From Acidobacteria bacterium RIFCSPLOWO2_12_FULL_68_19 (lineage in GTDB: Bacteria > Acidobacteriota > Vicinamibacteria > Vicinamibacterales > UBA2999), in assembly GCA_001767525.1 (NCBI GenBank), contig MELF01000031.1, forward strand, positions 1 to 37,045: a stretch of 37,045 bases of DNA, in the 5' to 3' direction. The notes below the pieces were generated by a model. It made no database searches. It was not told the origin of the DNA and saw nothing but the letters and a program-made list of their open reading frames with translations. This document shows, one piece after another, positions 18,300 to 21,539 of the stretch (position 1 is the stretch's first letter; each line of letters opens with the position of its first letter). A program made the translations under genes and the position numbers.

Positions 18300-19616
18300 A
18301 TGTCCGAGGCCGCACGGAAACCGCTGTACACACACCTGTACCTCCAGGTACTGACCGGGATTACGATCGGCGTCCTGCTCGGCTATCTCTGGCCCGCGAC
18401 GGGAGCGGCGATGCGGCCGCTCGGCGACGGTTTCATCCGGCTGATCAGGATGATCATCGCGCCCATCATCTTCGGTACGGTGGTCGTGGGGATCGCCAGG
18501 ATGGGCGACATGAAGAATGTCGGCCGCATCGGCGTCCGCGCCCTGCTCTACTTCGAGATCGTCTCGACCGTTGCGCTCCTCATCGGCCTCGTCGTCATCA
18601 ATCTGTACGCGCCGGGAGTGGGAATCAATGCGGACCCGCAGACGCTCGATGCCAAGGCCGTGGCGGCCTACACCGCGAGCGCCGAGCACCTGAGCACGGT
18701 CGACTTCCTGATGAACGTGATCCCGGCAACAGTCGTGGACGCATTTGCCAAGGGCGAAGTCCTCCAGGTGCTGCTGTTCTCGGTGCTGTTCGGCCTGGCG
18801 CTCCTCCACTTCGGCGACAAGGGGCGGAACCTCGTCGGCATCATCGACGAGTTCACCCATGCGCTGTTCGGTGTCGTCGGGATCATCATGCGCCTGGCGC
18901 CGATCGGCGCCTTCGGCGCCATGGCGTTCACGATCGGGCAGTACGGGATTGGAACGCTGTTTTCGCTCGGCAAGCTGATGGCCGGCTTCTATCTGACGTG
19001 CCTGCTCTTCATCATCGTGGTCCTCGGCTCGATCGGCGCATGGGCGGGCTTCAGCATCTTCCGCTTCATCGCGTTCATCAAGGAGGAGCTGCTCATCGTG
19101 CTCGGCACCTCCTCGTCGGAGTCGGTGCTGCCGCGGATGATGGCGAAGCTCGAGTACCTCGGGTGCTCGAAGTCGGTCGTCGGTCTGGTGATTCCGACGG
19201 GCTACTCGTTCAACCTCGATGGAACGTCCATCTACATGACGATGGCAGCCATTTTTGTCGCGCAGGCCACCAATACCGACCTGACGCTCGGGCAGCAGCT
19301 CGGCGTGCTCGCCGTGCTCCTGCTCACCTCGAAGGGGGCCGCGGCGGTGACCGGCGGAGGATTCGTGACGCTGGCGGCGACGCTGGCCACCGTGCCCACG
19401 ATCCCGGTGGCGGGCCTGGCGCTCATCATCGGCATCGACCGGTTTATGTCGGAGGCGCGCGCGCTGACCAACCTGATTGGGAACGGCGTCGGCACGGTCG
19501 TCATCGCCAAATGGGACGGCGCGCTCGACACCCGCCGCATGAAGCGGATCCTCAGCGGGCAGCCTGTCGAGGAGACGACGGAGGGATCCGAGCGGATGCT
19601 CGTCGTCGAGTCCTAG
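18300..19616 (+). CDS. Dicarboxylate/amino acid:cation symporter (DAACS family, DctA/GltP-like)
   Basis: 438 aa inner-membrane transporter with eight predicted helices and two re-entrant loops. Diagnostic segments: [17 protein letters not shown], the serine-rich hairpin [13 protein letters not shown], the helix [19 protein letters not shown], and the helix 8 motif [20 protein letters not shown]. It would take up C4-dicarboxylates or glutamate/aspartate with protons or sodium; the substrate cannot be told. The start has no ribosome binding site and fits a leaderless mRNA. The stop TAG is part of the CTAG at the left edge of a MITE; without the insertion it would share a CTAG with the convergent dapF stop. 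Confidence 0.93.
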
Positions 19617-19894
19617 GAGCCTGTCCGAGTAATAGCATGGGTCGCGCGCATGGGGCTTGCGAGGCGAGATCAAGGCGCGAGGAGGAGGCGATGCCCGTGC
19701 GCATCGGCGACGACGAGCAACGCCGAGCTCGCCCGCAACCCCCATGCGCCCTGCGGGTTCCGGCGGCGCACCGGCATCTGCGGCGTTGCCGCTCCTCGCC
19801 AATGCGCTCCGGCATTGCCTGCGTCGCGTCGCCTGGCATCTGCCGGCGCGGCGCTCGGAACGCGGCCCATGCTATTACTCGGACGGGCTCCTAG
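19613..19894. mobile_element. MITE-like non-autonomous element with 34-bp inverted ends flanked by CTAG
   Basis: The left end (19613-19646) and the reverse complement of the right end (19861-19894) agree in 32 of 34 positions and share CCGAGTAATAGCATGG. Both start with CTAG then GAGCC, so CTAG may be a 4-bp target duplication, as made by some IS5-group transposases (YTAR sites). The inside, about 210 bp, is GC-rich, has further self-complementary stretches (for example GCAACGCCG with CGGCGTTGC) and no transposase. The element fills the whole gap between two convergent genes and supplies both stop codons. Confidence 0.85.
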
Positions 19895-20679
19895 CCGCCG
19901 AGCCAGTCGCCGTCGAGCACGATTTCAGCCCAGCCCGTGAGATAGACGCCGTCGCCGCGCCACTCGACGCGCTGTGTTCCGCCCGGGGCAGCGACATCGA
20001 CCTGACGGGCCGCGCCGCCGTGAACGGCCGCCGCGACCGCTGCGGCGCAGCTCCCGGTGCCGGACGAGGCGGTCGGGCCCACCCCCCGCTCCCAGATGAG
20101 AATCCGCACACGGTCCGGCGTCTCGACGTGCGCGAACTCGACGTTGGTGCCGGCGGGGAACATCGGATGCGTGGCGAGCGCCGGTCCCAGCCGGTTGAAT
20201 CGGCCGGATTCGGGCAGCGGACCGAGGACAACGCACTGCGGGTTGCCCATCCGCAACACGGTGGCGGTCACCGTCTCCTCCCCGACTGGAATGCGGGCCT
20301 GACGGATGTCCTCTGGCGGCCCCAACGCCGCCCGACACGTGTACCGCCGCCCCGCACCCGCCAGGAGTTCAACCCGCATGACGCCGGCGTCGGTCTCGAT
20401 GCGGACTTCGGTCCCGGCCGGCAGTTGCTGCTCCCACGCCACGACCGCCGCGAGACACCGAAGGCCGTTTCCGGACAGCTCCGCGGCGCCCCCGTCGGCA
20501 TTGAACAGCGTCATGGCGGCGGCCCGATCGCCAAGTCCGTACAGAATGAGGCCGTCGGCGCCTATTCCCTGATGCCGATCACAGAGCGCACGCGCCAGCT
20601 CCGAACCGCCGGTCCGGCCGTCGGCGAGCGCGACGAACAGAAAATCGTTTCCGTAGGCGTGGGCTTTGATGACGCGCAC
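19891..20679 (-). CDS. dapF: Diaminopimelate epimerase-like protein lacking both catalytic cysteines
   Basis: 262 aa with the DapF fold marks: AYGNDFLFV, CDRHQGIGADGLI, FNADGG, GNG, MGNPQCVV, FPAGTNVEF and ERGVGPT. DapF racemises the meso centre of diaminopimelate with two cysteines, in the motifs MCGNG and ACGTG. Here the first is LSGNG (Ser69) and the second SSGTG (Ser206), while the non-catalytic cysteines in GNGLRC and GTGSC are kept. So it is either a divergent enzyme with altered chemistry or not a DAP epimerase. Start GTG 20679 (VRVIKAHAYG). The longer frame upstream overlaps the barrel-protein gene. The stop TAG lies in the right CTAG of the MITE. Confidence 0.82.
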   Translation of the reverse strand: MRVIKAHAYGNDFLFVALADGRTGGSELARALCDRHQGIGADGLILYGLGDRAAAMTLFNADGGAAELSGNGLRCLAAVVAWEQQLPAGTEVRIETDAGVMRVELLAGAGRRYTCRAALGPPEDIRQARIPVGEETVTATVLRMGNPQCVVLGPLPESGRFNRLGPALATHPMFPAGTNVEFAHVETPDRVRILIWERGVGPTASSGTGSCAAAVAAAVHGGAARQVDVAAPGGTQRVEWRGDGVYLTGWAEIVLDGDWLGG

Positions 20680-20693
20680 GCGGCCTGCCGCTC

Positions 20694-21539
20694 CTATGGG
20701 GACTGGAAGGCATTGAAGACGTAGGTGAAACCGGCGGTGACGCCAAAGCTCGGGTCCTGGCTCAACAGGCCGAACATCAACGCTCCGTCGGCGCGCCACG
20801 CGCCGGCGGTATAGCGCGCGCCCACCCGCAGCATGCTGTGCGACTCCGTGCCAGGCGGCGGGTCGCCCCGGCGCGTGTCCTTCCGTCCGTTGATCTCGCC
20901 GACAATCTCTCCCCTCTGCGACACCGCGCGGGCGAACGACAGCCCGTAGGTCAGCACGTCGTTCTGTCGGTCGCCGCGGGTGGGATCGCCGAGAATACCG
21001 AGCCCGATGTTCCCGACGAGGCGTACGGTCTGCACCGTCTTCGCGACGAGAAGCGAGGAGTAGAAGTCCATCGTATCGAGGCCCAGGCCGCTCTCGTTGC
21101 TCGCCATCGGCAGCCTGGTCGCCGACCGCAGTCCCAGCGACGGTCGCGACGCACCCTCAGAAACGAGACGAATCTTCGTGCCGACCACCATATCCTCGAC
21201 GTGCGACGTCTGGTCTCCGGTCACCGTGAGCATGTGTGCGAGCGGTGCGGGCCGCCGGTCGGTGATCGAAAGATGGTTGTAGAAGCCGCCATCGATCTGG
21301 ACCTCGCCGATCTCCCCGATACCCAGGCTGATGCCGATGACCGGGAAGCGCCGGAGATGGCCCGTCAGCCCCGACGCGGGATATTCCGCGTCGCGGGTGT
21401 AATCGATGCCCGCTTCGACGAGCATCCGCCCGGCGCCGACCGTCTCCGGGTCTTCGGTGACGAGCGGCCGCTGCTGCGCGAAGGCGGAGCCGGAGAGGCA
21501 GCAACTGGCCGCCATGATCGTGACAACCCGCATCCACAT
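20694..21539 (-). CDS. Outer-membrane beta-barrel protein of unknown function
   Basis: 281 aa. A signal peptide (MWMRVVTIMAASCCLSGSAF then AQQ) is followed by RPLVTEDPETVGAGRMLVEA, a start seen in the MetA-like/phenol-degradation and related outer-membrane barrel proteins. The rest is alternating polar/hydrophobic strands and ends in aromatic-rich GFTYVFNAFQSP, as barrels do. It may be a porin-like channel; no substrate can be assigned. Start codon 21539 or 21533 was chosen because the signal peptide begins there; the ORF is open back to 21635. The gene ends 14 nt before dapF, in the same direction. Confidence 0.7.
   Translation of the reverse strand: MWMRVVTIMAASCCLSGSAFAQQRPLVTEDPETVGAGRMLVEAGIDYTRDAEYPASGLTGHLRRFPVIGISLGIGEIGEVQIDGGFYNHLSITDRRPAPLAHMLTVTGDQTSHVEDMVVGTKIRLVSEGASRPSLGLRSATRLPMASNESGLGLDTMDFYSSLLVAKTVQTVRLVGNIGLGILGDPTRGDRQNDVLTYGLSFARAVSQRGEIVGEINGRKDTRRGDPPPGTESHSMLRVGARYTAGAWRADGALMFGLLSQDPSFGVTAGFTYVFNAFQSP

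Follow-up and report, generated by a model that had tools for sequence, protein, structure and literature searches.

Non-autonomous elements with IS1182-like ends have been described. MITEPye1 of Paracoccus yeei has such ends (ISPye18) and 4-bp direct repeats, lies preferentially between genes, folds into a long stem-loop and lacks a transposase (PMC11578231). The element described here resembles MITEPye1 in these respects, but the ends of MITEPye1 are 18 bp, and the available part of its description mentions neither CTAG nor stop codons (PMC11578231). Two autonomous members of the IS1182 family also resemble it in their targets. ISPsy36 has a palindromic 4-bp target repeat, but the target is GGCC rather than CTAG, and the element is autonomous with a length of 1666 bp; the CTAG target in the part of that paper available is that of ISPsy32 (PMC8027508). 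ISPse1 of Paracoccus seriniphilus (1653 bp, 16-bp ends) also has a 4-bp target repeat, but is likewise autonomous (PMC3281130). MITEPsy1 of Pseudomonas syringae is a 100-nt MITE that duplicates CTAG or YTAA and is reported to transpose; unlike the present element, it is listed as 'IS5?', probably originates from ISPsy2 and has different ends (PMC3189936). IS1272 carries the same IS1182 family label and targets inverted repeats, but it replaces a target stem-loop without duplication, whereas the present element has CTAG alone as its target and duplicates it (PMC5678879). No description of a MITE on a stop codon shared by two genes was found in the portions of open-licence PMC text searched.

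The DNA analysed here is a stretch of 37,045 nucleotides (the window) from Acidobacteria bacterium RIFCSPLOWO2_12_FULL_68_19. Positions 19613–19894 hold a non-coding foldback element of 282 bp including two copies of CTAG, a net insertion of 278 bp. Judged by its sequence, it is an IS1182-type MITE, and thus of a kind already known. Arm detection placed the left terminal inverted repeat at 19613–19646 (plus strand) and the right one at 19861–19894 (minus strand). The arms are 34 nt each, 94% complementary and separated by 214 nt, with CTAG at the outer edge of both, as the earlier note had reported in describing a MITE within CTAG. The element is short and leaves no room for a transposase, despite one open frame of 93 codons. 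This plus-strand frame is open throughout 19613–19894, its stop being the TAG in the right CTAG; the remaining two frames run only as far as the first TAG or to RSLSE. A 17-mer from the element end (up to three mismatches) occurs twice in the window, where 0.04 occurrences are expected, and CTAG occurs eight times against 39 expected from shuffles, two of the eight being the element edges. The excess of the 17-mer, the rarity of CTAG and the seven full copies in the genome argue that the element is not a product of chance.

The element separates two convergent genes identified by their open reading frames and by curated models. To the left, dctA (18300–19616, plus strand) encodes a C4-dicarboxylate transporter (DctA model, E 3e-202). 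To the right, dapF (19891–20799, minus strand) encodes a diaminopimelate epimerase (DapF model, E 8.8e-54); its start is uncertain, the open reading frame reaching 20799 and in-house codon scoring placing the start at 20679. The left CTAG (19613–19616) contains the dctA stop TAG at 19614–19616, and the right CTAG (19891–19894) contains the dapF stop as the complement of 19891–19893. The ends of the open reading frames agree with the stop positions given in the earlier note, and its statement that neither protein was changed holds by construction, with the ends of DctA and DapF unaltered. Each gene retains its own C-TAG stop because the duplication puts CTAG back on each flank.

The earlier note also supposed that one CTAG had ended both genes before the insertion and suggested comparing relatives without the element. 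A DapF search of 43 genomes of the family, the host included, matched 40, and 30 loci were taken, the host's among them. Only in the host and in one genome of the same genus (G035) was dctA on the same retrieved locus as dapF. The G035 locus (L053) lacks the element and has exactly the supposed arrangement: dctA occupies 185–1498 on the plus strand with its TAG at 1496–1498, dapF occupies 1495–2292 on the minus strand with its stop as the complement of 1495–1497, and a single CTAG at 1495–1498 terminates both. Joining the window flanks across one CTAG reproduces this layout. At this one site, compared with one other same-genus genome, CTAG on both sides of the element thus corresponds to a single CTAG in the empty site, as expected of a target-site duplication. 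Second empty sites were sought in G035 at three other host loci, and no comparable junction was found: PurA had no match, and the phosphoglycerate-dehydrogenase and gyrase-B-like queries had only matches of 37–42% identity with junctions that are not comparable.

The host assembly (4.21 Mb in 52 contigs) contains seven full copies, the window copy included, along with a 55-bp form and, at the edge of a contig, a 117-bp piece. The six other full copies are 98–99% identical to the window copy and lie at separate loci with differing flanks; adjoining genes include purA and those for phosphoglycerate dehydrogenase and gyrase-B-like, lptG-like and dedA-like proteins. CTAG at other copies had been named as a check, and 13 of the 14 ends of the full host copies read CTAG and one CCAG. 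The exception is the left end of L006; the script kept two surplus bases in the left flank there, and the class of this site was taken from the right-hand gene. The contig-edge fragment (L008), which has one flank only, and the 55-bp form (L009) are counted among the nine host sites. L009 (1501–1555; G000:C20:119074–119128) is a near-perfect palindrome with little beyond two element ends, has CTAG on both sides and lies in a divergent intergenic region. It is either an extreme internal deletion or a minimal mobile form.

The harmlessness of the insertion does not hold at every host site, as L002 and L004 illustrate. At L002 (1501–1520), the frame of the left-hand gene, another frame than that of the CTAG stop, continues into the end of the element and terminates after RSLSE. 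The same gene ends RP-stop when the empty site is modelled, so the element end supplies a new C-terminus. At L004, L007 and, in another genome (G055), L155, CTAG immediately adjoins the start called for a gene on the minus strand and reads CTAG-ATG. The CTAG at L004 doubles as the stop of the gene upstream, and this stop/start junction is now split by the element.

The ends of the element connect it to autonomous elements in other genomes. Of 162 genomes in the order, 21 (the host included) carry a 24-bp end pattern with up to three mismatches, and none contains the reversed-pattern control. A looser 17-mer genome search gave 12 and 12 hits in the host against 11 and 10 for the control, and the three-mismatch hits of that pattern are therefore uninformative. 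In G056, G063 and G097, end pairs 1510–1540 bp apart flank transposase frames. Those of G056 (E 8.9e-110) and G097 (E 1.2e-106) match the IS1182 model NF033551 above its cut-off, and the G063 transposase, of which a partial frame was scanned, scores 231.9 bits against a cut-off of 270. An exact 24-mer search of named genomes returned 24 stretches from metagenome bins, a set from which the host's own records were perhaps excluded. Eighteen are labelled Dehalococcoidia, Dehalococcoidales or Chloroflexi, and the remaining six Bauldia, Gammaproteobacteria, Planctomycetota or Elusimicrobia. One of these, a Dehalococcoidia contig (L187), holds a 1567-bp element whose right end is the exact 24-mer, whose left end differs at 3 of 21 positions and whose transposase matches NF033551 above cut-off (E 9e-113). 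The ends are thus common to an autonomous element with an IS1182 transposase, with related ends in G056 and G097. The earlier note had expected an IS5-group partner; this expectation failed, as IS5 models gave 19–65 bits against cut-offs of 110–275, and the transposases are IS1182 by the curated model. Since the matching elements of about 1.5 kb encode IS1182 transposases, the window element is IS1182-type, not IS5-group.

The host genome yielded no autonomous partner scoring above cut-off. The G056 transposase as query had no match there, in a search run without a positive control, and the IS1182 family model gave a single 26-bit match (L182), with controls matching in 6 of 14 named genomes. 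A repeat such as an autonomous partner could be missing from an assembly in 52 contigs. L182 (G000:C47, about 129339–129626) is a transposase encoded in two frames that overlap, close to the end of a contig; as a candidate host autonomous copy it was rejected, since by eye it looks like an IS5-like split transposase.

Among the best 45 matches to elements elsewhere, similarity does not extend beyond about 41 bases from the end, except in L195. This locus (5–85, at a contig edge of Gammaproteobacteria MAG SJ809) is a relative of the MITE, 79.5% identical to it in an alignment of 83 bases, the shared end among them. CTAG flanks 103 of the 106 ends counted across 60 loci of other genomes, a figure biased toward CTAG because the search pattern (24 letters, up to three mismatches) itself contained it. 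At L100 (G065:C73, 1504–1541), two abutting elements have one CTAG in common, as if one had entered the target repeat of the other.

Based on these results, the window element is very probably an IS1182-type MITE that was moved in trans and duplicated CTAG at the shared stop of dctA and dapF. An IS1182-family transposase supplied in trans would have recognised the element ends, and the 278-bp element would have inserted at the palindrome CTAG that formed the common stop of the two convergent genes, duplicating those 4 bp. With CTAG regenerated on each flank, dctA and dapF would each have kept a C-TAG stop. That an IS1182 transposase moved the window copy we infer from the shared ends and target; its source may since have been lost from the host genome or be absent from its assembly. 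Insertions would be frequent at stops because of where CTAG survives in a CTAG-avoiding genome and because insertions that damage genes are lost.

Avoidance or modification of CTAG has been described in haloarchaea, according to the parts of two reports available (PMC3119063, PMC2841640). In 1.13 Mb of the 4.21-Mb host genome there are 211 CTAGs, whereas dinucleotide composition predicts 1264 and trinucleotide composition 796, a depletion of about six-fold or nearly four-fold, respectively. After ten CTAGs less than 300 bases from the end of a stretch were dropped, 201 were classed as 86 intergenic, 58 within genes, 52 at a single stop and 5 at shared convergent stops, with genes called by an in-house codon-usage script instead of a standard gene finder. 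Stops thus account for 57 of 143 non-internal background CTAGs (40%). This background is partly on element-bearing contigs, but the script flagged none of its CTAGs as element-linked, and it supersedes an earlier, simpler codon test of 400 kb (stops at 22 of 77 CTAGs). Of the nine insertions in the host, two are at shared stops, five at single stops, two intergenic and none within genes.

It is improbable that the element is instead drawn to gene ends, with stop-codon CTAGs or 3'-end structures preferred over other CTAGs. Such a preference would fit the host counts, in which stops are over-represented (7/9 against 57/143; one-sided binomial P 0.025, two-sided Fisher 0.036), as are shared stops (2/9 against 5/143; one-sided P 0.037, Fisher 0.056), but these P values are uncorrected and were chosen after the data were seen. 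Selection against gene damage also predicts the same direction, and the host excess of insertions at stops is weak. The insertions elsewhere argue against the preference. From 62 loci, hand-picked among the first matches listed for each genome, 39 two-ended insertions with 250-base flanks on each side were kept, drawn from nine other genomes of the order and one Elusimicrobia contig and classed with the host codon model throughout. Two are without CTAG; the other 37, which include a perhaps false pair of 37 bp (L159), comprise 11 at single stops, 1 at a shared stop, 16 intergenic and 9 internal. Stops therefore make up 12 of 28 non-internal insertions (43%), near the host background, which indicates that the stop overlap mostly follows the distribution of CTAG. 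A per-end count over 60 loci of other genomes placed 19 of 106 ends on a gene's TAG. In the earlier note the insertion was a case of target choice; CTAG as the target stands, whereas a choice beyond CTAG is not supported, the stop overlap being near that given by the CTAG distribution. The overlap is mostly that of a CTAG-duplicating element in a genome whose surviving CTAGs lie mainly outside genes or at C-TAG stops. A stronger proposal is that, in CTAG-avoiding genomes, C-TAG stops, above all shared convergent ones, act as safe harbours for CTAG-duplicating elements, because duplication restores the stop of any gene ending at the target, and that the MITE has accumulated at stops beyond the supply of CTAG; this is doubtful.

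It is similarly unlikely that the element is retained because it terminates transcription in both directions, or stabilises RNA as a hairpin, between convergent genes. A single strand of the element folds very strongly (−195 kcal/mol, z −11 against shuffles), and convergent gene ends flank four of the nine host sites (L001, L002, L003 and L005). However, such folding is common to any foldback MITE, and the near identity of the copies would have left little time for selection to show. A scan of 19000–20500 for a G+C-rich stem followed by a T run, with loops of 3–8, found no terminator. An Rfam search of 19400–20100 gave no match up to E 1, and a structured RNA was rejected on that basis. The foldable, terminator-like spacer of the earlier note is thus foldable, but it has no stem and T-run terminator by simple scan. 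Neither active stop targeting nor a terminator role is supported.

It is very improbable that CTAG is part of the element ends and that insertion occurred without duplication: although a palindromic CTAG makes a direct repeat indistinguishable from an extension of the inverted repeats at one occupied site, the single CTAG in the empty site refutes this here unless G035 gained CTAG independently, and gene stops fall within CTAG at 7 of the 9 sites in the host and at 12 of 37 elsewhere, a coincidence unexpected if CTAG merely came with the element.

Finally, the CTAG-duplicating, IS1182-type MITE at the dctA/dapF junction is a base-by-base case in which a palindromic target containing a stop codon renders an insertion neutral for two proteins, since a C-TAG target, once duplicated, automatically preserves the stop. 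A sister species with the empty site backs this example of a neutral insertion. The example also ties an element lacking a transposase to partners of IS1182 type, and contigs labelled as several phyla carry the same ends. The results suggest that avoidance of a motif, here CTAG, may direct mobile elements to the ends of genes even when these ends are not themselves targeted.
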